A program made the translations under genes and the position numbers. 64,000 nt of DNA, taken from the NCBI RefSeq assembly GCF_025642135.1, contig NZ_CP106793.1:1781001-1845000 (forward strand). Direction: 5' to 3'. Shown piece by piece: positions 7,983-46,704 of the stretch. The stretch's first letter is position 1. Every line of letters starts with the position of its first letter. Source of the DNA: Streptomyces cynarae. Its GTDB lineage: Bacteria > Actinomycetota > Actinomycetes > Streptomycetales > Streptomycetaceae. The notes below the pieces were generated by a model. That model was not told where the DNA came from and made no database searches. It was given only the letters and a program-made list of their open reading frames with translations.

Positions 7983-8054
7983 GCGCGATTAGCTCAGCGG
8001 GAGAGCGCTTCCCTGACACGGAAGAGGTCACTGGTTCAATCCCAGTATCGCGCA
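7983..8054 (+). tRNA. tRNA-Val (anticodon GAC), copy 2 with altered acceptor stem
   Basis: The body is identical to the other two Val(GAC) genes, but the acceptor stem is GCGCGAT/ATCGCGC. The substitutions at positions 2 and 3 are exactly compensated on the 3' side, so the stem is fully paired and the gene is probably functional. Confidence 0.96.
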
Positions 8055-36054: not shown

Positions 36055-36641
36055 TGGGAAAGACCTATGAGCGCATAGATGGCAGACTGCGCACGTTCAT
36101 CGAGGCACAACCCGTGTTCTTCACCGCGACCGCTCCCCTGTCGGCCGACGGCACGGTCAACCTCTCCCCCAAGGGCCTCAAGGGCTCGTTCGCCGTGCTC
36201 GACGAACGCACCGTGGCGTATCTGGACTTCGCCGGAAGCAACGCCGAGACGATCGCGCACCTGCGCGAGAACGGCCGGATCACCCTCATGTGGTGCGCCT
36301 TCCAGGGCCCGCCCAACATCGTGCGCGTGCACGGCCGCGGCGAGCCGGTCTTCCGCGACGACCCCCGCTTCGAGGAACTGCTCACGCGTTTCCCGGACAT
36401 CGATCCCACCCTGCACGGTCTGCGCGCCGTCATCGTCGTGACGGCCGAGCTCATCCGCGACACCTGTGGCTACGCGGTGCCCTTCATGGCCTATGAAGAG
36501 GACCGCGACCTGCACGCCAAGCGTTTCGCGCGCGAGGACGACGCCTCCCTCGATGAGTACTTCCGGAGGAAAGAACACGTCCGAACGAGTCTCGACGGCC
36601 TGCCGGGACTGCCGTTGCCCCTGCCTCCGTCTACGTTCTGA
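36054..36641 (+). CDS. Pyridoxamine 5'-phosphate oxidase-family flavoprotein
   Basis: A 195-residue protein of the PNPOx-like split-barrel fold, which binds FMN or a deazaflavin or haem. The N-terminal half (FFTATAPLSADGTVNLSPKG, VAYLDFAGSNAETIAHLRENGRITLMWCAFQGPPNIVRVHGRG) is typical of this fold. The C-terminal part is an added helix (YEEDRDLHAKRFAREDDASLDEYFRRKE). The reaction is unknown. A GTG two codons upstream is an alternative start, but the promoter spacing favours ATG at 36054. It is followed 3 bp later by the L,D-transpeptidase gene, so they are probably co-transcribed. Confidence 0.82.
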   Translation: MGKTYERIDGRLRTFIEAQPVFFTATAPLSADGTVNLSPKGLKGSFAVLDERTVAYLDFAGSNAETIAHLRENGRITLMWCAFQGPPNIVRVHGRGEPVFRDDPRFEELLTRFPDIDPTLHGLRAVIVVTAELIRDTCGYAVPFMAYEEDRDLHAKRFAREDDASLDEYFRRKEHVRTSLDGLPGLPLPLPPSTF

Positions 36642-36644
36642 GGC

Positions 36645-37349
36645 ATGCGCCCCGGTGTCGTCGCCGCTCTCGCCTCCGCCTCCCTCCTCCTGCTCGGTGC
36701 CGCACCGGACCCCGCCGAGGACGCCCCGCTGCCCGAGCGGATGGCGGACACCGGCGGCGGCACCCAGCTGATCACCGCGGAGGCCGCCACGACCGGAGCG
36801 ACCTCGGGCACGGTCAGCTGGTGGGACCGCACAGGCGGGCGGTGGATCAAGGCGGGCTCGGCACCCGCGCGCTTCGGGGCGAAGGGGCTCGTCGAGGGCG
36901 GCTCACGCCGGCAGGGCACGAGCACGACACCGACGGGTCTGTACGACCTGCCGTTCGCGTTCGGCATCAAGACCGCGCCCTCGGGTGCGAGGGCGCCCTA
37001 CCGGCGGGTGCGTCAGGACACCTGGTGGTGCCAGGACAACGACTCGCTCTCGTACAACCGCTGGACGGAACCCCTCCCGGGCGACTGCCGCGCCTCCGAG
37101 TCGGAACACCTGATCGCGTACGACCCGCAGTACGACTACGCCCTCGTCATCGGGTTCAACTACGACCTGCCGGTGCGCGGCCGTGGCGCCGGCATCTTCC
37201 TCCACGTCAACGGCAAGGGGGCGACGGAGGGTTGTGTGTCGGTGCCGGGGGACGCGATGGAGCGGATCCTGACATGGGCGGATCCCGGGCGCCGGCCGCA
37301 CATCGCTATCGGGACGGCAGGCGGGACGACCGCGATCACTCGTTACTAG
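36645..37349 (+). CDS. Secreted L,D-transpeptidase (YkuD-like)
   Basis: A 234-residue exported enzyme. The short signal peptide (MRPGVVAALASASLLLLGAAP) is followed by a YkuD-type domain whose catalytic motif is visible as FLHVNGKGATEGCVSVP: the His, then Gly, then Cys of the H-x-S/T-x-G-C-V/I signature. The preceding TPTGLYDLPFAFGIKTAP matches the family's substrate groove. It should form 3-3 peptidoglycan cross-links or trim stem peptides. Its last 14 bp overlap the 3' end of the convergent sensor-kinase gene. Confidence 0.87.
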   Translation: MRPGVVAALASASLLLLGAAPDPAEDAPLPERMADTGGGTQLITAEAATTGATSGTVSWWDRTGGRWIKAGSAPARFGAKGLVEGGSRRQGTSTTPTGLYDLPFAFGIKTAPSGARAPYRRVRQDTWWCQDNDSLSYNRWTEPLPGDCRASESEHLIAYDPQYDYALVIGFNYDLPVRGRGAGIFLHVNGKGATEGCVSVPGDAMERILTWADPGRRPHIAIGTAGGTTAITRY

Positions 37350-38838
37350 AGCGGCCCGGGCCGCCGACAGGCAGGCGCACCGTGAACGTCGTCGCCCCCG
37401 GACGGCACTCCAGGCTCACGCTCCCGCCGTGCGCCTCCGTCACCGCCGCCACGATGGACAGGCCCAGGCCCGCTCCGCCGCCCCGGTGTTCCGGGCGGCG
37501 GCGGTGCTCGGCCCGGGTGAAGCGTTCGAACACCCCCGACTGGATCTCGGCGGGGACTCCCGGCCCGTCGTCGTGGACCGTGAGGACGGCCTCCGTGCCG
37601 TCCGTCTCCAGGGATACGGTCACCTTGGTGCCCACAGGTGTGTGCAAACGCGCGTTGGCCAACAGGTTCGCCAGCACCTGATGGAGGCGGTAGCCGTCCC
37701 CCGTCACCGTCACCGGCTCCTCCGGCAGCTCCATCGTCCAGCCGTGGCCGGGACCGGCGGCCCGCGCGTCCGTGACCGCGTCGAGGACCAGACGAGTGAG
37801 GTCGACAGGACGCCGCTCCAGGGGGCGGCCCGCGTCCAGGCGGGCCAGCAGCAGCAGATCGTCGACCATCTCGCCCATGCGCCCCGACTCCGCGGCGATC
37901 CGCTCCAGGGCGCGGGTCACCTCCGGCGGCACCGGACCCGGATGCAGCAGCGCCAGCTCGGCGTGCCCCCGGACCGAGGCGACCGGCGTGCGCAGCTCGT
38001 GGCTGGCGTCGGCGGCGAAGCTGCGCAGCCGCTCCTCGCTGGCGTGCCGCTTGGTGAGCGCGTCCTCGACATGGCCGAGCATGCGGTTGAAGGCGCCGGC
38101 GACCCGGCCCACCTCGCTGCGCGGGTCGCTCTCGGGGGCGCGCGGTGGCAACGCCACCTCGCCGCTGGCGAGCGGGAGTTCGCTGACCCGGGTGGCGGTC
38201 GCGGCGACGCGGCTGAGCGGACGCAGGGACCACCGCACCCAGAGGGCGCCCGCGACACCGGTGACCGCCAGGGCCGCCCCGAAGACGACCGCGGCGACGA
38301 GTTCCAGGCGGTGCACCGCGGCATCCACCGGCTCGAGCGGCAGTCCGGTGATCAGTACGTCACCGTCCATGCCGCTGCTCGCCACGAGGCGGTACTCACC
38401 GAGCGAGGACAGGCAGACGCTGTGGCCCCTGCCGTCCACGGGCACCGCGGCGAGCGTGCGCTCGTCCCCCGCGTTCAGCGGGGCGCTGAGATCGGTGCTG
38501 TCGCTGCCGGGGTGCACCAGCCCCACATTGGTGACCCTGCCCCCGACCAGCCGGGCGCCGAAGGTCCCGAAGGACTGTTTGCGGGTGTCGGCGTGCTCGT
38601 CGCCGTCGTGGTCCGACGGTTTGACGCCGTGCTCCAGGCTCGCCGCGAACCGCGGGCCGACGTCCCGCAGCTGCTGGTCCAGCCGGCCGGTGAGGAAACC
38701 GTTCAGCTCGACCACGGCGGCCACCCCGACGGCGGCGCAGCTGAGCGCCAGCAGCAGCACGAGCCCGGCGGTGAGACGGGCCCGCAGGGTCCGCGGCCGG
38801 GGCAGGCGCCGTACCGCCTCGCGCAGCCGGGCCCTCAC
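37336..38838 (-). CDS. Two-component sensor histidine kinase
   Basis: A 500-residue membrane kinase. Two spans (about residues 18-38 and 185-205) enclose a 145-residue extracytoplasmic sensor region. HAMP (RPLSRVAATATRVSELPL) and HisKA with the phosphoacceptor in ASHELRTPVASVRGHAELA follow. The HATPase domain has N box LANLLANARLHTP, G1 VHDDGPGVP and G2 GAGLGLSIVAAV. The GTG start overlaps the stop of the response-regulator gene by 4 nt (GTGA). The pair is divergent from the flavin electron-transfer operon, which it may control. Confidence 0.93.
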   Translation of the reverse strand: MRARLREAVRRLPRPRTLRARLTAGLVLLLALSCAAVGVAAVVELNGFLTGRLDQQLRDVGPRFAASLEHGVKPSDHDGDEHADTRKQSFGTFGARLVGGRVTNVGLVHPGSDSTDLSAPLNAGDERTLAAVPVDGRGHSVCLSSLGEYRLVASSGMDGDVLITGLPLEPVDAAVHRLELVAAVVFGAALAVTGVAGALWVRWSLRPLSRVAATATRVSELPLASGEVALPPRAPESDPRSEVGRVAGAFNRMLGHVEDALTKRHASEERLRSFAADASHELRTPVASVRGHAELALLHPGPVPPEVTRALERIAAESGRMGEMVDDLLLLARLDAGRPLERRPVDLTRLVLDAVTDARAAGPGHGWTMELPEEPVTVTGDGYRLHQVLANLLANARLHTPVGTKVTVSLETDGTEAVLTVHDDGPGVPAEIQSGVFERFTRAEHRRRPEHRGGGAGLGLSIVAAVTEAHGGSVSLECRPGATTFTVRLPVGGPGRSSNE

Positions 38839-39575
38839 CGGGCCACCGGCTTCAGGACGTAGCCGGCGCCGCGCACCGTGTGGATCATGGGCTCGCGACC
38901 CGCGTCCACCTTCTTGCGCAGGTAGGAGATGTACAGCTCGACGACATGGGCCTGGCCGCCGAAGTCGTAGGACCAGACCCGGTCGAGGATCTGGGCCTTG
39001 CTGAGGACGCGCCGCGGGTTGCGCATCAGGAAGCGCAGCAGCTCGAACTCGGTCGGTGACAGCTCGATCAGCTCGCCGGACCGGGTGACCTCGCGGGCCT
39101 CCTCGTCCATGACCAGGTCGCCGACGGTCAGCCGGGGCCCGTCCTCCAGCTGCCGGGCCATGCCGGCCCGGCGCAGCAGGCCACGCAACCGCGCGACGAC
39201 CTCCTCCAGGCTGAACGGCTTGGTCACGTAGTCGTCGCCGCCCGCCGTGATGCCGGCGATGCGGTCCTCGACGGCGTCGCGGGCGGTGAGGAAGAGCACA
39301 CACACGTCCGGTTTCACATGGTGCAGCTCGCGCAGCACGGCGAAGCCGTCGGTGTCGGGGAGCATCACGTCCAGGACGACGGCGTCGGGCATCAGGTCAC
39401 GGGCCTCGGCGACGGCGGCGGCGCCGTCACCGGCGGTGCGCACCTCCCAGCCCTCGTAGCGCAGGGCCCCGGACAGCACCTCGGCGAGGTCGGGGTCGTC
39501 GTCGACGACGAGGACGCGCAGGGGCGTGCCGTCGGGGCGGGCGAGGGCGGGGCGGCCGGAGCGGGATGTGTTCAT
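38835..39575 (-). CDS. OmpR/PhoB-type response regulator
   Basis: A 246-residue regulator. The receiver has VLVVDDDPDL, phosphoacceptor Asp69 in VVLDVMLPDTDG, the Thr in FLTARD and Lys in VTKPF. The C-terminal winged helix (SPTEFELLRFLMRNPRRVLSKAQILDRVWSY, then VVELYISYLRKKVD, TVRGAGYVL) is typical. It is the first gene of the two-component pair. Three CTCAGA direct repeats in the 208-bp gap to the divergent flavocytochrome operon are a plausible target. Confidence 0.94.
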   Translation of the reverse strand: MNTSRSGRPALARPDGTPLRVLVVDDDPDLAEVLSGALRYEGWEVRTAGDGAAAVAEARDLMPDAVVLDVMLPDTDGFAVLRELHHVKPDVCVLFLTARDAVEDRIAGITAGGDDYVTKPFSLEEVVARLRGLLRRAGMARQLEDGPRLTVGDLVMDEEAREVTRSGELIELSPTEFELLRFLMRNPRRVLSKAQILDRVWSYDFGGQAHVVELYISYLRKKVDAGREPMIHTVRGAGYVLKPVAR

Positions 39576-39708
39576 CGCACTTACAAGGATCCACTCTGCC
39601 GGCAGCGGCCGAGGACGCGGGCCGCTCTGAGTTCCCTATGAGCGTCTCGGGCACGCCCGCCGAGATTCCCTGACCAGGGCGCTTCCCCGCCGCCGTCTTC
39701 AGCGCAGG

Positions 39709-39734
39709 CTCAGACTCCTCAGAGCCGCCTCAGA
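39709..39734 (+). promoter_or_regulatory. CTCAGA direct repeats upstream of the electron-transfer operon
   Basis: CTCAGA occurs at 39709, 39718 and 39729, at 9- and 11-bp steps, 50-75 bp upstream of the first flavocytochrome gene. OmpR-type regulators bind head-to-tail repeats at about one helical turn, so this is a candidate site for the adjacent response regulator. Confidence 0.45.
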
Positions 39735-39783
39735 AGTTCCGCCTGCACAGTTGCGGCGTCGAAACGCCCGAAAGGAACAGATC

Positions 39784-41133
39784 ATGACCACGGTCTACCA
39801 GCAGCAGGCGCCACCCTTGTCGCCGGTCGTCCGGCGCTCTCCGGCGGCCCCCCTGCTGGCCCTGCTGTGGGCCGGGGCCGCCGCCGTGGTCGCCCTGTGG
39901 TGGCAGAGCACCGGCTCGGTGGTGGGCACGGCGGGCTGGCTGACCGGGGCCGGGCGGATCGCGGGACTGCTGTGCGGGTACTCCTGTGCGGTGCTCGTGG
40001 GCCTGATGGCCCGGGTGCCGCTGCTTGAGCGGCGGATCGGCTCGGACCGGGTGGCGCGCTGGCACGCCATGGCCGGGCGGTACACGGTCTGTCTGCTGGT
40101 CGCGCACATCGTGCTGATCCTGACCGGGTACGCCGCTCAGGACCGGGCCTCGCTCGTGCACGAGACGGTCACGGTGGTGTGGGACTACCCGGAGATGCTG
40201 AAGGCCACCATCGGCACGATCATCCTGTTCGCCGTCGGGATCACCTCGGCGCGGGCCGTGCGCCGCAAGGTCGGCCATGAGTTCTGGTACTACGTGCACC
40301 TGCTGACGTATGCGGCGGTGTTCCTCGCCTTCGGTCATCAGCTGGCGCTGGGCGCCGAGTTCACCGGGAACCCGGTCGCGCAGGCCGCCTGGTACGCGCT
40401 GTACCTGGGCGTCGCGGCCCTGGTGGTGTGGTTCCGCCTCCTCACCCCGGTGCGGCTGAACCTGCGGCACCGGCTGCGGGTGGAGTCGGTGCACCAGGAG
40501 GCGCCGGGCGTGTGGTCCGTCGTCATGCGCGGCCGGCACCTGGACGAACTGGGCGCCGAGCCGGGGCAGTTCTTCCGCTGGCGGTTCCTCACGGACGGGC
40601 TGCGCTGGACGTCCACGCCGTACTCGCTGTCGGCGCCGCCCCGCCGCACCCAGCTGCGCATCACCGTCAAGGCGCTCGGGGACCACAGCACCTCGGTGGC
40701 CCTGCTGCAGCCGGGCACCCGGGTGTGGGCGGAGGGCCCGTACGGGTCGCTGACCGCCGACCGGCAGACCACCGGCAGGTCCCTGCTGATCGCGGGCGGC
40801 GTCGGCGTCACCCCGCTGCGCGCCCTGTTCGAGACGCTGCCGGGCGAGGTGACGCTGCTGTACCGGGCGCGCTCGGCGGAGGACCTGGCGCTGGGCGGCG
40901 AGCTGGAGTCCATAGCACGGTGGCGCGGCGCGAAGGTGCTGTACGCCCTCAACGGCGAGGACGGCTCGCGGCCCCGCCTCACCCCCGGCGCGCTGCACGG
41001 CGCGGTGCCCGAACTCGCCGATCACGACGTCTATCTGTGCGGCCCGTCCGGGTTCGCGGAGGACATGTACGAGGCGCTGCGGGCGGCCGGGGTCCCCGAC
41101 CGCCGTATCCACCACGAGTCGTTCGAGCTGTGA
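39784..41133 (+). CDS. Ferric-reductase-like transmembrane flavocytochrome (first)
   Basis: A 449-residue protein combining about six membrane spans with a cytoplasmic FAD/NAD(P)H reductase. His residues suited to haem binding lie in RWHAMAGRYTV, LVAHIVL, YVHLLTY and FGHQL. The reductase has WTSTPYSLSAPPR for FAD, and LIAGGVGVTPLRALFE and DVYLCGPSGFAEDMYEAL for NAD(P)H. It probably takes electrons from NAD(P)H through FAD and haems across the membrane. AAAGGAACAGATC precedes the ATG. The next gene, a flavinylation-type FMN protein, is the likely acceptor outside. Confidence 0.9.
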   Translation: MTTVYQQQAPPLSPVVRRSPAAPLLALLWAGAAAVVALWWQSTGSVVGTAGWLTGAGRIAGLLCGYSCAVLVGLMARVPLLERRIGSDRVARWHAMAGRYTVCLLVAHIVLILTGYAAQDRASLVHETVTVVWDYPEMLKATIGTIILFAVGITSARAVRRKVGHEFWYYVHLLTYAAVFLAFGHQLALGAEFTGNPVAQAAWYALYLGVAALVVWFRLLTPVRLNLRHRLRVESVHQEAPGVWSVVMRGRHLDELGAEPGQFFRWRFLTDGLRWTSTPYSLSAPPRRTQLRITVKALGDHSTSVALLQPGTRVWAEGPYGSLTADRQTTGRSLLIAGGVGVTPLRALFETLPGEVTLLYRARSAEDLALGGELESIARWRGAKVLYALNGEDGSRPRLTPGALHGAVPELADHDVYLCGPSGFAEDMYEALRAAGVPDRRIHHESFEL

Positions 41134-41140
41134 GGCCGTC

Positions 41141-41668
41141 ATGCACGCGTTGAAGAGGAACAGCCCGCTGCGCCGGATCGTGCTGGCGAGCGCCGCGACC
41201 GTCTCGGGGATGGTGCTGCTGCTGTCGATGAAGCCGCACTCGTCGCCCGGCATCGCCGTGGCCGCGCCCGCGCCGTCGAGCAGTGCGGCCGGGTCGAGCG
41301 GGTCCGGTGGGTCCAGCGGCTCGACCGGCTCCAACGGATCCACCGGTTCCAGCGGCTCGGGCAGCACGAACGGATCCGCCGGGTCCACCGGCACCAAGAC
41401 CGTCACGGGAGAAGAGGCCCAGACCCGCTACGGCCCCGTCCAGGTGCGGATCACGGTGAAGAACGGCAAGCTCACCGACGTCACCGCCGTGGAATACCCC
41501 CAGGACAACCCGAGGGACCAGGAGATCAACAGCTACGCCGTCCCCCAGCTGAACCGGGAGGCGTTGACGGCGCAGAGCGCGAACATCGACGTGGTCTCCG
41601 GTGCCACTTACACGAGCCAGGGTTACCAGCAGTCACTCCAGTCGGCGCTGGACTCCGTGAAGGGTTGA
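41141..41668 (+). CDS. Anchored FMN-binding protein with one flavinylation motif
   Basis: A 175-residue extracytoplasmic protein. One N-terminal span (RIVLASAATVSGMVLLLSM) is followed by a long Ser/Gly linker (SGSGGSSGSTGSNGSTGS) and one FMN_bind domain. That domain (TRYGPVQVRITVKNGKLTDV) ends with VVSGATYTSQGYQQSLQSAL. SGATYT matches the (D/S)GA(S/T)x(S/T) motif whose last Thr/Ser receives FMN in a phosphoester bond made by ApbE. It starts 7 bp after the preceding flavocytochrome gene and should pass electrons outward from it. Confidence 0.9.
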   Translation: MHALKRNSPLRRIVLASAATVSGMVLLLSMKPHSSPGIAVAAPAPSSSAAGSSGSGGSSGSTGSNGSTGSSGSGSTNGSAGSTGTKTVTGEEAQTRYGPVQVRITVKNGKLTDVTAVEYPQDNPRDQEINSYAVPQLNREALTAQSANIDVVSGATYTSQGYQQSLQSALDSVKG

Positions 41669-41750
41669 ACGCACGGCGGCTCCGCGACGTACCTCTGGGC
41701 CAAGGGGGCCACTGGCCTCACCCGTCCCATGGAGGATCACGGAGGAGACC

Positions 41751-43130
41751 GTGTCCACGATCGCCGGTGGCCGCGCCGCGCGGCGCCAGACGATGCGCGC
41801 CATCCGCCCACGCCGCTCCCCCGCCGTCCCGCTGCTGCTCGCCGTCTGGGCGGGCGCGGCGGGCGTCGTCTGGCTGTGGTGGACGAACACGCCGTCCATC
41901 GCCGACAACAACAGCAGAATCCTCAACGCGGGGCGGATCACCGGCCTGCTCGCCGGCTATCTGATGGCCCTCGTGGTGCTGCAGATGGCCCGGGTGCCCG
42001 CGCTGGAGCGCCGGGTCGGCTCCGACCGGGTCGCCCGCTGGCACGCCATGACCGGCCGGTACACCGTCTGCCTGGTCCTCGCCCATCTGTTCCTGACGAT
42101 GTGGGGCTACGCCCTGCAGAGCGGCAGGGGGCTCGGTGGGATCGTCCAGCAGACCGTCGACTCGATCGAACAGCTGCCGGATGTGGGCAAGGCCGCCATC
42201 GGCACGGGCCTGCTGGTCCTCATCGGCCTGCTCTCGATCGGACCGGTCCGGCGCAGGATCTCCTACGACCTCTGGTACCACATCCATCTGCTCACCTACG
42301 CGGCCACGTACCTGTCGTTCTGGCACCAGTTGTCGACGGGCAACGAGTTCGCCGTGCAGCCGGAGGCGAAGACCGCCTGGTACGCGCTGTACGGGTCGGT
42401 GACCGCGCTGGTGATCTGGTACCGGATCCTCACGCCGATCCGGCTCAACCTGCGGCACCGGCTGCGGGTGGAGGCGGTCATCGAGGAGACGCCCGGGGTG
42501 GTGTCGGTGCTGATGACGGGGCGGAAGCTGCACCGGATGGGCGCGGAGGCCGGGCAGTTCTTCCGCTGGCGGTTCCTCGCGCCCGGGATGCGGTTCAGCT
42601 CGCACCCGTACTCGCTGTCGGCGGCGCCCCGCCCGAACATGCTCCGGATCACGGTGAAGGCCATCGGTGACCACAGCTCCGCGCTGCGGGACCTCGAGCC
42701 CGGGACTCGGGTGTGGGCGGAGGGCCCGTACGGTGCCTTGACCGCCGACCGGCGCAGCAGGGGCAAGGTGCTGCTGGTGGCCGGAGGTGTCGGCATCACG
42801 CCGATGCGGGCCCTGTTCGAGACGCTGCCGGGCGCCCCCGGCGACATCACGCTCCTCTACCGCGCCAACACCACCCATGATCTGGCCCTGTGGGACGAGC
42901 TGGCGCAGATCGCGGAGGAGCGCGGCGCCCGGCTGATGTACGCGGTCAACAGCCCGGACGGGGAACGCCCCGACATCTCGGCGGAGACCCTGAGCCGGAA
43001 GCTGCCGGACATCGACCGCCACGACGTCTTCATGTGCGGGCCGCCCGGCTTCGCGCAGCAGGTGTACGAAGCACTGCGCGGCGCGGGGGTCCCCGCCCGC
43101 CGCATCCATCACGAGTCGTTCGAGATGTGA
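41751..43130 (+). CDS. Ferric-reductase-like transmembrane flavocytochrome (second, paralogue)
   Basis: A 459-residue paralogue of the gene at 39784, alike over the full length: RVGSDRVARWHAMTGRYTV, YHIHLLTYAA, FSSHPYSLSAAPR, VAGGVGITPMRALFE, FMCGPPGFAQQVYEAL and the same C-terminus HHESFE. The membrane and reductase parts and their cofactors are therefore expected to be the same. A strong GGAGGAGACC ribosome site precedes the GTG. The duplication of the flavocytochrome-FMN protein pair suggests two acceptors or redox potentials. The 82 bp before it hold no ORF. Confidence 0.9.
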   Translation: MSTIAGGRAARRQTMRAIRPRRSPAVPLLLAVWAGAAGVVWLWWTNTPSIADNNSRILNAGRITGLLAGYLMALVVLQMARVPALERRVGSDRVARWHAMTGRYTVCLVLAHLFLTMWGYALQSGRGLGGIVQQTVDSIEQLPDVGKAAIGTGLLVLIGLLSIGPVRRRISYDLWYHIHLLTYAATYLSFWHQLSTGNEFAVQPEAKTAWYALYGSVTALVIWYRILTPIRLNLRHRLRVEAVIEETPGVVSVLMTGRKLHRMGAEAGQFFRWRFLAPGMRFSSHPYSLSAAPRPNMLRITVKAIGDHSSALRDLEPGTRVWAEGPYGALTADRRSRGKVLLVAGGVGITPMRALFETLPGAPGDITLLYRANTTHDLALWDELAQIAEERGARLMYAVNSPDGERPDISAETLSRKLPDIDRHDVFMCGPPGFAQQVYEALRGAGVPARRIHHESFEM

Positions 43131-43159
43131 GCGACGGGAAACCAGGAGCCTGGAAGAAG

Positions 43160-43975
43160 ATGAGGAAGAGCCACCCCGTGCGGCGCGTCGTGCTCGCCAC
43201 CGCAGCCACCGTGTCCGGGATCGTGCTGCTGCTGTCCCTGAAGCCGGCCTCGGGTCCCGCCTCGGCCCAGGCGGGGGGCGGTGCCGCACCGCAGCAGACC
43301 GCCGCCGCCCAGGAGTCGCCGCAGGGCGGCAGCGGACAGCAGACCGGCACCCGGACCGTCACCGGTGAGGTGGCCAAGACGCAGTACGGCCCGGTGCAGG
43401 TGCGCCTGACCGTGAGCGGCGGGAAGATCACCAGGGCCGAGGCGGTGCAGGCACCCAAGGGCGGGCTCAGCGACCAGAAGACCGCCATGGCCGTGCCCCA
43501 ACTCAACCAGGAGGCGGTCGCCGCGCAGAGCGCGCAGATCGACGCGGTCTCCGGCGCCACGTACACGAGCGGCGGGTACAAGCAGTCCCTGCAGTCGGCG
43601 CTCGACAAGGCGAAGGCCACCTCCGGCGGCGCGGCCTCGTCCGGGTCCGCGGGCGGTTCCGGGGCGTCGGGTTCGTCAGGGGCGGCGGGGGCGGCGGCCC
43701 AGGCGCGTACGGTCACCGGTAACGTGGCGCAGACGCAGTACGGCCCCGTCCAGGTCCGCGTGACCGTGAGCGGCGGGAAGATCACCAGGGCCGAGGCGGT
43801 GCAGGCGCCCAAGGGCGGGCTCAGCGACCAGAAGACCGCCATGGCCGTGCCCCAACTCAACCAGGAGGCGGTGAGCGCACAGAGTGCGAACATCGACGCG
43901 GTCTCCGGCGCGACCTATACCAGCACCGGATACAAGCAGTCCCTGCAGTCGGCGCTGGACAAGGCCGGTGGCTGA
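43160..43975 (+). CDS. Anchored FMN-binding protein with two flavinylation motifs
   Basis: A 271-residue extracytoplasmic protein: one N-terminal span (RRVVLATAATVSGIVLLLSL), a Gln/Gly/Ala linker, then two FMN_bind domains, each ending in VSGATYTS (about residues 130-137 and 250-257), joined by a Gly/Ser linker. Each should carry one covalent FMN. The two domains share a 112-nt stretch (43407-43518 and 43761-43872) that differs by a single base by eye, pointing to a recent duplication or gene conversion. GGAAGAAG precedes the ATG. Its stop is immediately followed by the apbE start. Confidence 0.9.
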   Translation: MRKSHPVRRVVLATAATVSGIVLLLSLKPASGPASAQAGGGAAPQQTAAAQESPQGGSGQQTGTRTVTGEVAKTQYGPVQVRLTVSGGKITRAEAVQAPKGGLSDQKTAMAVPQLNQEAVAAQSAQIDAVSGATYTSGGYKQSLQSALDKAKATSGGAASSGSAGGSGASGSSGAAGAAAQARTVTGNVAQTQYGPVQVRVTVSGGKITRAEAVQAPKGGLSDQKTAMAVPQLNQEAVSAQSANIDAVSGATYTSTGYKQSLQSALDKAGG

Positions 43976-44773
43976 GTGGCGGACCAGGTGACCGACCCCG
44001 AGGCACCGCCCGTGCTGCGCCACGCGGAGGAGGTGATGGGCACCGTCTTCTCCTTCGACGTGCGCGGCGGCCAACCCGAGGCCGTACAGACCGCGCTGGA
44101 GGAGGCGATCGCCCATCTCCACCGGGTGGACGAGGTGTTCAGCCCCTACCGCGAGGACAGCCAGATATCGCGGCTCGCCCGCGGTGAGGTGAGTGTGGAG
44201 GACTGTGACCCGGAGGTCGCCGAGGTGCTCGCCCTGGGAGCGGAGGCGGAGCAGATCAGCGACGGCTGGTTCAGCACCCGGTTCGGTGGCCGGATCGATC
44301 CGACCGGGATCGTGAAGGGCTGGGCGGTGGAGCGCGCGGCCCGGCGGCTGGCGGCGGCCGGGGCGAGCGGGGTGAGCGTCAACGGCGGCGGGGACGTGCA
44401 GATGTACGGCATGCCGGAACCGCACCGGCCCTGGCGGGTCGGTGTGTCGGACCCGCTGCGGCCCGGCGGGCTGGCGGCGGTGGTGTCCGCGGCCGGCGTG
44501 GAGGAGCTGGCCGTGGCCACCTCGGGGACCGCGGAGCGCGGCGCGCACATCGTGGACCCGCGCACGGGGCGCTCCGCGGTGACCGACCTGGTGGCGGTGA
44601 CGGTGGTGGGCCCCAGCCTGACCTGGGCGGACGCCTGGGCCACGGCGGCGTTCGCGATGGGGTCACGGGCGGGGCTGGCGTGGCTGGAGTCACTGCCGGA
44701 CGTGGAGGCGCTGCTGATCACCGCCGGTGACGAGGTGCGGTGCACGGGGGGTCTCGCCGCGCGCCTGGGGTGA
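43976..44773 (+). CDS. apbE: FAD:protein FMN transferase (ApbE) without a signal peptide
   Basis: A 265-residue ApbE-fold enzyme that transfers FMN from FAD to Thr/Ser of FMN_bind domains. Characteristic segments are MGTVFSFDV, VDEVFSPYREDSQISRLARGE, DPTGIVKGWAVERAARRL, SVNGGGDVQMYG and ATSGTAERGAHIVDPRTG. The GTG at 43976 directly follows the TGA of the two-domain FMN protein, so enzyme and substrate are coupled. It has no N-terminal signal or lipobox, whereas many ApbE proteins are exported. It may therefore act on its substrates before or during export, or be exported with a partner. Confidence 0.92.
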   Translation: MADQVTDPEAPPVLRHAEEVMGTVFSFDVRGGQPEAVQTALEEAIAHLHRVDEVFSPYREDSQISRLARGEVSVEDCDPEVAEVLALGAEAEQISDGWFSTRFGGRIDPTGIVKGWAVERAARRLAAAGASGVSVNGGGDVQMYGMPEPHRPWRVGVSDPLRPGGLAAVVSAAGVEELAVATSGTAERGAHIVDPRTGRSAVTDLVAVTVVGPSLTWADAWATAAFAMGSRAGLAWLESLPDVEALLITAGDEVRCTGGLAARLG

Positions 44774-44840
44774 GCATCGGGACTGGGGCGCCCCGGCCGG
44801 GGCCGGCCGGGGCGGGTTTCGCATGCCCGCGCCTGCGGAG

Positions 44841-44875
44841 CCTCCCTCAAGCTCTTCGAACAGGGGGATCCCCAG
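44841..44875. repeat. Degenerate copy of the dispersed palindromic element
   Basis: CCTCCCTCAAGCTCTTCGA followed by ACAGGGGGATCCCCAG resembles the copies in the MFS, AKR and pheT genes but has a shortened centre. It lies in the 180-bp gap between apbE and argR, where I see no ORF. Confidence 0.6.
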
Positions 44876-44954
44876 CGCCCACCCGTGCCGCGCCTGGGGT
44901 CCCCAGTCCGTCGAGGCACTGGGGGAGGCACGACTGCCCGCAGCTGCGTCGGGC

Positions 44955-45491
44955 TCAGTGCCCGTTCTGCGCCAGCCGCAGCAAGTGGTCCGCCAGCGCC
45001 TGCCCTCCCGTCGGCTCCCGGCTGATCAGCAGCACCGTGTCGTCCCCCGCGATCGTCCCCAGGATGTCGTGCAGTTCCGCCTGGTCGATCGCCGACGCCA
45101 GGAACTGCGCGGCCCCCGGAGGGGTGCGCAGGACCACGAGGTTCGCGGAGGCCTCCGCCGAGATCAGCAGCTCCTGCGAGAGCCGTCGCATCCGCTCCTC
45201 CTTGGCCGACCCCCCCAGCGGCGCGCGAGGCGTGCGGAAACCGCCCTCGCTCGGCACCGCGTAGATCAGGTCGCCGTCGGTGTTGCGGATCTTCACCGCG
45301 TTCAGCTCGTCCAGGTCCCGGGAGAGCGTCGCCTGCGTGACGCTCAGCCCGTCGTCGGCGAGGAGTTTCGCCAACTGGCTCTGGGAGCGCACCGGTTGCC
45401 GGTTGAGGATGTCCACGATCCGGCGGTGGCGTGCGGTGCGGGTCTGCGGCACGGCAGGCCCCGTGTGCTCGTGGTCCTGCGCCTGACTCAT
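44955..45491 (-). CDS. argR: Arginine repressor
   Basis: A 178-residue ArgR. The N-terminal winged helix is [52 protein letters not shown]. The C-terminal hexamerisation and arginine-binding domain has [25 protein letters not shown]. With arginine it should bind the ARG boxes before argC and argG. The ATG at 45491 lies 7 bp after the argD stop; an in-frame GTG or ATG further upstream would overlap argD. It is the last gene of the argCJBDR operon. Confidence 0.96.
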
Positions 45492-45498
45492 CGTCGTC

Positions 45499-46704
45499 TC
45501 ATTCTCCGGATCGTCCGTCCCCATTCACTGGGTGCACTGCCTCGAGGACACCGGGAAGCGCCTGGAGCAACGCCTGCACCTCGTCGTCGCCGAGGTTCAG
45601 CGGCGGCATCAGCCGTACGACGTTCGGGGCGGGCGCGTTCACCAGGAGGCCGGCGTCCTGAGCCGCCTGCTGCACCTGTGGCGCGAGCGGCTCGGTGAGC
45701 ACGATACCCAGCAGAAGGCCCGCGCCCCGGACATGTTCGATCAACGGGTGGCCCAGCGACTCGATTCCGTCCCGCAGCTTCTCGCTCTGCCGCTTGACGT
45801 TCTCCAGCAGGCCCTCACCCGCGATGGTGTCGAGCACGGCGAGGCCGGCGGCGCACGCGACGGGGTTGCCGCCGAAGGTCGTGCCGTGCTGGCCCGGCAG
45901 GAGCAGCTCGGCGGCGCGGCCGAAGGCGACGGTGGCGCCGAGCGGCAGCCCGCCGCCGAGTCCCTTGGCGAGGGTGACGACGTCCGGCAGGACGCCCTCG
46001 TGGGCCTGGTACTCGAACCAATGCCCGGTACGGCCGACGCCGGTCTGCACCTCGTCGAGCACGAGCAGCGCCCCGGTGGCGGCGGTGATCGCGCGGGCCG
46101 CCTTCAGGTAGCCGGCGGGCGGGACCACGACCCCGTTCTCGCCCTGGATGGGCTCGATGATGACGAGTGCCGTCTCCTCGGTGACCGCGGCGGCCAGGGC
46201 CTGCGCGTCGCCGTAGGGGACGTGGGTGACGTCGCCGGGCAGCGGCAGGAACGGCTCCTGCTTGCCGGGCTGACCGGTCAGCGCGAGGGAGCCCATGGTG
46301 CGGCCGTGGAAGCCGCCCTGGGTGGCGACCATGTGCCGGCGGCCCGTCAGCCGGCCGATCTTGAAGGCGCCCTCGTTGGCCTCGGCGCCCGAGTTGCAGA
46401 AGAAGACCTTGCCGTCGCGGCCGAAAAGCTGAAGGAGCCGTTCGGCGAGGGCGACGGGCGGCTCGGCGATGAACAGGTTGGAGACGTGGCCGAGGGAGGC
46501 GATCTGCTTGCTCACGGCCTCGACGACCGCGGGGTGGGCGTGACCGAGGGCGTTGACCGCGATGCCGCCGACGAAGTCGAGGTACCGCTTGCCGTCGGCG
46601 TCCCAGAGCTGGGTGCCCTCACCGCGGACGAGGGGCAGCCGCGGGGTGCCGTAGTTGTTCATGAGCGCGCCCTGCCACCGCGCGGTCAGTTCCTCATTGC
46701 TCAC
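45499..46704 (-). CDS. argD: Acetylornithine aminotransferase
   Basis: A 401-residue class III PLP aminotransferase that makes N-acetylornithine. It contains [18 protein letters not shown], the [13 protein letters not shown] phosphate-site region, [30 protein letters not shown] and the PLP-lysine segment [16 protein letters not shown]. The GTG start overlaps the argB stop by 4 nt. It lies between argB and argR in the operon. Confidence 0.97.

Follow-up and report, generated by a model that had tools for sequence, protein, structure and literature searches.

A predicted sensor-controlled, MsrQ-like electron-export cassette in Streptomyces with a DUF2231 membrane protein as probable partner in trans

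We examined a window of 64,000 nucleotides from Streptomyces cynarae (contig NZ_CP106793.1, positions 1,781,001 to 1,845,000; coordinates below count from its first letter), in which five + strand genes, Fre1-FMNb1-Fre2-FMNb2-ApbE, run divergently from a sensor histidine kinase (HK) and a response regulator (RR), an arrangement on which open reading frames, Pfam domains and an earlier note on this DNA agree. The cassette probably encodes a regulated transmembrane electron-export system of the MsrQ-like, NADPH oxidase (NOX)-like kind, with one half under sensor control and a DUF2231 membrane protein encoded in trans. Cytosolic NAD(P)H would reduce the FAD of Fre1 or Fre2, two b haems would pass the electrons over the membrane, and outside it they would be taken up by covalent FMN, with one group on FMNb1 and two on FMNb2, both anchored proteins, for delivery to an extracytoplasmic acceptor. 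Loading of FMN by ApbE would most likely be cytosolic; as their twin-Arg anchors suggest, the FMN_bind proteins would be exported folded, by twin-arginine translocation (Tat). HK-RR would control Fre1-FMNb1 via direct repeats with a period of 11 bp, the inner half-site of which would overlie the -35 region, would probably control itself via a mirrored repeat on the RR side, and would control in trans DUF2231, a predicted four-helix membrane protein with four conserved histidines, while Fre2-FMNb2-ApbE would be driven by its own promoter. Gene order, domains, conserved ligands, operators and co-occurrence were established by computation; we infer the direction of electron flow through Fre and FMNb, FMN loading in the cytosol, an activating role of RR, a redox or metal function for DUF2231, and the candidate acceptors, namely O2, Fe(III) and redox-active small molecules.

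The case for sensor control begins with the DNA between RR and Fre1. The strict pattern YTCAGAGNNNNCTCAGAG, with up to one mismatch allowed, has two matches genome-wide, and both fall within the 208-bp RR-Fre1 intergenic region (reversed-pattern control, one). The half-sites on the Fre1 side follow one another at steps of 11, 9 and 11, and the operator consensus is YTSAGAR-N4-CTSAGAR. The CTCAGA direct repeats that the earlier note had seen in the shared promoter region are borne out as non-chance by their restriction, at this tolerance, to this one intergenic region; the mirrored pair on the RR side was absent from that note. Among the loci listed, two mirrored 11-bp-period direct repeats lie between RR and Fre1 in both classes B and C of the survey described below. 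For a set of named loci we took the best 80 of at least 585 confirmed Fre1 relatives (Streptomyces, two labelled only 'Actinobacteria bacterium'), the nearest listed being Streptomyces sp. Ru72 (98%), sp. Y2F8-2 (97%) and S. hygroscopicus ATCC 21589 (93%); the set shares some species with the survey regions. The relaxed operator was present at 74 of these 80 loci and HK-RR adjoined Fre1 at 77, two of the remaining three seeming to start at contig edges. An A....T hexamer stood exactly 10 nt from the operator in 61/61 Fre1 promoters counted, the other 19 being left out because the stretch scanned contained no exact operator on the + strand or because the match lay off position 8001. Across 20 genomes with a B-type Fre1, 23 of 26 exact strict-pattern matches were at the cassette (control, one); one of the other three led to a DUF2231 gene (G003), and two (G146, L125; G068, L141) led to no common gene. 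The conserved operator and the linkage strongly support an RR dedicated to the cassette. On such comparisons HK-RR is to be assigned to the Fre1-FMNb1 half, and the dedicated control proposed in the earlier note is supported for that half and not for the five genes as one unit.

The sensor itself carries a predicted extracytoplasmic alpha/beta domain at about residues 61-168 with an acidic loop, SDHDGDEHADTR, which may be a cation-binding sensor loop; the AlphaFold model has a mean predicted local distance difference test score (pLDDT) of 71 and is of low confidence at the loop itself (below 50 at residues 73-83). At about residues 73-84, sensors of class B have a DHDGDEH-like acidic loop, and those of class C have DADNxPD.

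The partner in trans was first seen as a stray strict-operator match just upstream of a gene in G003, the product of which scored 37.5 bits against PF09990 (DUF2231; cut-off 26.4). A homologue 70% identical to it is present in G000, and homologues were found in 15 of 21 genomes tested. In G000, the genome of the window, the gene has the same operator upstream (C1, about 6861706-6861723), 10 nt from an A....T hexamer, and lies 5 Mb from the cassette. In 12 upstream regions that were read, a YTCAGARGNANCTGAGAR-like repeat is followed by a CTGTGCCAGGCTG-like stretch. Thirty DUF2231 loci were taken from 35 matches listed, and within 250 bp upstream the relaxed operator occurred exactly in 19 and with up to one mismatch in 23, compared with 0/30 for the reversed pattern; the spacing from operator to A....T was exactly 10 nt in 18/18 promoters counted (12 loci were left out, with no exact operator or no CTG in the tail). 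Among the seven operator-less loci, three (G075, G023, G009) adjoin the cassette, one (G135) is in a genome without HK, and three (G029, G028, G138) are counter-examples taken up below. The relaxed pattern had 58 matches in 16 genomes (control, 3), as we read their places 25 of them at the cassette, 14 at a DUF2231 promoter and 19 elsewhere.

The gene also follows the sensor across genomes. In a sample of 159 genomes of the genus, 83 with FMN_bind, the HK type was found in 48, all 48 with FMN_bind. DUF2231 was present in 29/48 genomes with the HK type versus 3/111 without (Fisher p 7e-16, kinship ignored; G025 scored as HK-positive on a partial match, G069 as gene-positive on a fragment), and within the 83 FMN_bind genomes the split was 29/48 versus 1/35. 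In L078, L091/L197, L233 and L234 the gene stands physically beside the cassette. Its AlphaFold model consists of four long helices (pLDDT 70). All 26 sequences in an alignment have His 10, 15, 69 and 79, and the motifs around the histidines are kept in 115, 119 and 107 of 120 listed proteins. From the order of the helices the four histidines lie together at the same end of the bundle, which the positive-inside rule, applied to the charges of the loops, places outside; this suggests a haem or metal site. DUF2231 is probably a partner gene encoded elsewhere and sharing the operator; the earlier note's remark that no terminal acceptor is encoded at the locus stands, with this addition. No report joining DUF2231 with Streptomyces was found in the open-licence literature.

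Two further loci are recorded here for their surroundings. At L235:5639-9077, the sensor pair is present in a second copy that adjoins DUF2231 and has no Fre or FMN_bind gene with it, beside neighbours that by eye (FASCDGCQL) resemble a NiFe-hydrogenase or complex I small subunit. At L184:3694 (G107), a DUF2231-type operator (TTCAGAAGAAGCTGAGAA) lies upstream of a gene for a secreted-looking protein, a possible further regulon member.

The other half of the cassette behaved differently. Eighty regions around FMN_bind matches, chosen among the matches listed, were classed by tblastn with the window's proteins: Fre2-FMNb2-ApbE at the arg locus without HK-RR (class A, 27/80, one of them, L066, cut by a contig end), the window-like arrangement (class B, 18/80), HK-RR with Fre1-FMNb1 at other loci (class C, 11/80, nine with ApbE), a diverged paralogue with Fre about 40-44% identical and its own diverged sensor pair (class D, 21/80), and Fre2 relatives at 67-69% without HK-RR (class E, 3/80). 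The sensor pair accompanied Fre1 or class D and never Fre2 alone. The element TGAAC[AG][CA]-N15-CGTA[CT] was found upstream of Fre2 in 27/27 class A and 20/21 class B loci (47/48); in class A the DNA upstream of Fre2 is intergenic. In 12 genomes this pattern had 33 matches and its control 0, 11 of them at the cassette (none there in G101) and 22 elsewhere. In G049 (C1:1983676) and G067 (C1:7725939) it also occurs, with the same letters in both, some 2.4 kb further upstream than the element of Fre2. No match to a sigma-70 consensus was found in 39500-45000, and no Rfam RNA at gathering score in 36500-46000. Because Fre2-FMNb2-ApbE occurs without HK-RR in 27/80 regions and has its own promoter-like element in 47/48 loci, a single operon of all five genes probably does not account for everything. 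Of the single operon under HK-RR that the earlier note proposed, the adjacency of the genes remains and the single unit is unlikely; two transcription units, with read-through possible, would be the simplest reading, and Fre2-FMNb2-ApbE may be the more constitutive core.

The history of the two reductases points the same way. A tree built from 118 Fre sequences placed B-type Fre1 in a clade of its own (25 rows, Shimodaira-Hasegawa approximate likelihood ratio test (SH-aLRT) 99), apart from a second clade that joined Fre2 to its relatives of class E (51 rows, SH-aLRT 100). A recent tandem duplication was ruled out by these separate, well-supported clades and the 59% identity of the two proteins, so that of the earlier note's duplicated cassette the two related halves are retained, as ancient paralogues in place of a fresh tandem copy. 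Within the Fre2 clade, loci with and without HK-RR are interleaved, and the Fre1 block has therefore been lost or moved repeatedly. The halves occur joined (class B), apart within one genome (G107: L048 with L091/L197) or singly; in the reverse case, G077 (L236), HK-RR, Fre1, FMNb1 and ApbE stand at the arg locus without Fre2. More widely, 158 of 394 genomes of the class have a homologue of Fre (E up to 1e-60). Thirty loci outside the genus (L255-L284) were examined over a 1.5 kb stretch each. In family f17, HK-RR is paired with Fre-FMNb-ApbE at five of six loci (L256, L258, L259, L261, L262), neither HK nor RR being visible in the stretch of the sixth, L282, and the relaxed operator is present in L256 only; loci of families f14, f18, f27 and f31 have Fre-FMNb and no RR within the stretch.

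The electron path itself, from NAD(P)H through FAD and haem to FMN, is what these families predict, and agrees with the published MsrQ-like model (PMC8238504). It is likely because 118/118 Fre sequences keep the haem ligands H94, H108, H172 and H185 (Fre1 numbering), the GxGxxP motif of NAD binding and ExF at the C terminus, and because SaFMN3 of S. azureus, a published relative of FMNb2, has covalent FMN, a potential of -184 mV and reactivity with O2 (PMC10339131). Pfam assigns PF01794 to Fre1 and Fre2, PF04205 to FMNb1 and FMNb2 and PF02424 to ApbE, which is the clustering of a PF01794 protein with FMN_bind and apbE that marks the MsrQ-like class; FAD_binding_8 was assigned to Fre2 only, not Fre1. 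The reductases have the NOX-type architecture of a bis-haem transmembrane core with FAD and NAD(P)H domains. Pfam domains and sequence agree with the earlier note on one SGATYT site in FMNb1 and two in FMNb2; the number of SGAT sites differs among FMN_bind relatives. The three FMN_bind domains of the cassette are all the PF04205 matches (E up to 0.001) in the 9.36-Mb genome, and both PF02424 matches fall within the one apbE, the sole ApbE of the genome. The two domains of FMNb2 are identical to each other at 81/87 positions, which reads as a recent internal duplication.

Judged by hydropathy only, ApbE shows none of the hydrophobic signal-like segment expected of a secreted lipoprotein flavin transferase: in every row listed, the best 17-residue mean was below 1.0 in the 60 residues before the conserved core. 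An ApbE without signal peptide implies flavinylation in the cytosol before export. Among FMN_bind proteins of classes A, B, C and E, 90/93 readable rows have a twin-Arg anchor (five rows unread), and cytosolic FMN loading followed by Tat export would fit both features. According to a review, the majority of ApbEs are apparently secreted, and in Klebsiella a soluble fumarate reductase receives its FMN from an ApbE of the cytosol (PMC12052999); the flavinylation survey dropped genes when neither a signal peptide nor a lipid site was predicted for them (PMC8238504). Covalent FMN, by analogy with the published relative, is largely answered for FMNb2 and not for FMNb1 (PMC10339131).

Several observations weigh against parts of this account. 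Of the 19 relaxed matches elsewhere, seven are a seemingly unrelated palindrome, TTGAGAGCGCTCTCA(A/G), and the remaining 12 share no recurrent gene save a second RR gene in G000 and G144, which leaves room for further targets. The three operator-less counter-examples of DUF2231 are in genomes that bear HK. The gene is missing from 19/48 HK-bearing genomes and is therefore not essential. Its comparison with solved sequences gave no match at E up to 1 and no clear fold, and it is the conserved histidines that suggest haem or metal binding. Activation by RR, as opposed to repression, is read from promoter geometry. Tat export cannot be general, because the class D paralogues have a twin-Arg in 0/21 anchors readable by pattern (KR by eye).

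Three other explanations were weighed against regulated electron export. The first, which we consider rather unlikely, is that the system works as a bacterial NADPH oxidase, passing electrons to O2 outside to give peroxide, superoxide or O2 scavenging, with the FMN proteins as its O2-reactive end. The best solved relatives of Fre2 include 8qt6, 8qq7 and 8qta, which we take to be S. pneumoniae NOX and which cover part of the transmembrane core too. Reduced flavins commonly react with O2, an FMN relay would be superfluous for O2 reduction by a NOX, and DUF2231 is left unaccounted for; reduced SaFMN3 does react with O2, but at a slow 1.2 per s (PMC10339131). The second explanation makes HK-RR a general envelope-stress or metal regulator for which the cassette is no more than a neighbour and which acts through weak sites on a wider regulon. 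The heavy-metal sensor family gave HK its best, sub-cut-off score, and the 19/58 relaxed matches away from the cassette and DUF2231 include one upstream of another RR gene (G000, G144; L185, L191); however, 39/58 are at the cassette or the DUF2231 promoter, and the HK type never occurs without FMN_bind in the 159 genomes. A large RR regulon was not supported at two mismatches, where the strict pattern had 46 sites in the genome versus 40 for the reversed control, that is, background, and we regard a general regulator as quite unlikely. A cell-surface ferric reductase for iron acquisition is also improbable: the Fre proteins do have a Ferric_reduct domain and VIT1 transporter genes occur in 153/1797 MsrQ-like clusters (PMC8238504), but no iron transporter was recognised by eye beside class C cassettes (neighbours not tool-annotated), and the promoter is bound up with the sensor pair (no search for an iron-regulator box was made).

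The class of regulated electron export preferred here is already known in its core; the conserved operator, the DUF2231 link and the signal-less ApbE are new. MsrQ-like flavinylation clusters number 1797 in 1468 genomes of all phyla and are broadly conserved in Actinobacteria (Meheust et al. 2021, eLife, PMC8238504). They likewise combine a PF01794 protein, often with a C-terminal NAD-binding domain, with an FMN_bind protein and apbE (PMC8238504), whereas the present locus has two paralogous reductase/FMN_bind pairs, a divergent two-component pair with a mapped predicted operator, and DUF2231 in trans. A term search of the main text of that survey gave no occurrence of DUF2231, PF09990, response regulator or histidine kinase, and 'two-component' is confined to its references (PMC8238504). 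FMNb2 resembles SaFMN3 in its N-terminal anchor and in its domains, identical at 70/87 and, for the second, 71/88 positions to the solved domain 8P2A, an entry named 'FMN-binding domain-containing protein' that appears to be the SaFMN3 domain; SaFMN3 has three FMN domains versus two in FMNb2, and its natural electron donor is called unknown in its paper (PMC10339131), whereas the gene order Fre2-FMNb2 points to Fre2 as a candidate donor for this protein family. The Listeria FmnB/PplA pathway of extracellular electron transfer also has an ApbE-type enzyme and an FMN-bearing surface protein, but FmnB acts outside the membrane (PMC9973259) and ApbE here lacks a signal peptide. Bacterial NADPH oxidases (8qt6 and related entries) likewise carry FAD and NAD(P)H domains on a transmembrane core; the cassette reductases differ in being apparently coupled to covalent-FMN-type proteins and ApbE. 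A haem reductase takes the place here of the quinone route of Listeria.

MsrQ-like clusters are common in Actinobacteria. With a conserved operator, their trigger can be tested by reporter, and DUF2231 is brought forward as a candidate for a partner in trans. For this group, the signal-less ApbE questions the usual assumption of flavinylation outside the cytosol. A more far-reaching version, unlikely in our judgement, is an electron-export machine assembled from two or more chromosomal sites, in which an acidic-loop sensor switches both the NOX-like/FMN relay and DUF2231 as an outer-face haem or metal protein taking or distributing electrons, with cytosolic FMN loading and folded Tat export; if true, it would be a stimulus-switched machine and DUF2231 a previously unrecognised haem/metal membrane protein.

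Table 1. Genes and predicted control elements of the cassette (window positions).
Feature	Position	Strand	Description
HK	37336-38838	-	OmpR-family sensor histidine kinase; Pfam HAMP/HisKA/HATPase_c; two predicted transmembrane helices
RR	38835-39575	-	OmpR/PhoB-type response regulator; Response_reg and Trans_reg_C; 4-bp overlap with HK
RR-side operator	39625-39642	-	CTCATAGGGAACTCAGAG on - strand; mirrored direct repeat, period 11
Fre1-side operator	39698-39735	+	half-sites TTCAGCG, CTCAGAC, CTCAGAG, CTCAGAA at 39698, 39709, 39718, 39729
-10-like hexamer CACAGT	39746-39751	+	exactly 10 nt downstream of Fre1-side operator
Fre1	39784-41133	+	NOX/ferric-reductase-like transmembrane flavocytochrome with FAD and NAD(P)H domains; haem His pairs H94/H108, H172/H185
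FMNb1	41141-41668	+	twin-Arg N-terminal anchor, Gly/Ser linker, one FMN_bind domain (SGATYT)
Fre2 promoter-like element	41666-41694	+	TGAACGC-N15-CGTACCT; overlaps FMNb1 stop codon
Fre2	41751-43130	+	Fre1 paralogue, 59% identical over 439 alignment columns
FMNb2	43160-43975	+	twin-Arg anchor, two FMN_bind domains
ApbE	43976-44773	+	FAD:protein FMN transferase without signal peptide (hydropathy)

The cassette is adjoined by argR and argD, named by eye from their open reading frames. Class D cassettes (L084, L085, L092, L094-L096, L098-L107, L109-L113) have, beside their own divergent sensor pair, a different 11-bp-period operator, TTGAAAG..CGACAG-N5-CGACAG. Another RR gene at L185 (G000:C1:8317000-8323500) and L191 (G144) has a similar upstream repeat (CTGAGAAGAGGCTGAGAG in G000) and is divergent from a small secreted-looking protein rich in Asp, His and Gly. 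In class C, membrane proteins starting with a (N/K)KVPEVTL(Y/A)FW-like sequence adjoin the sensor kinase gene at L240:3532-4341 and L242:5357-7227.

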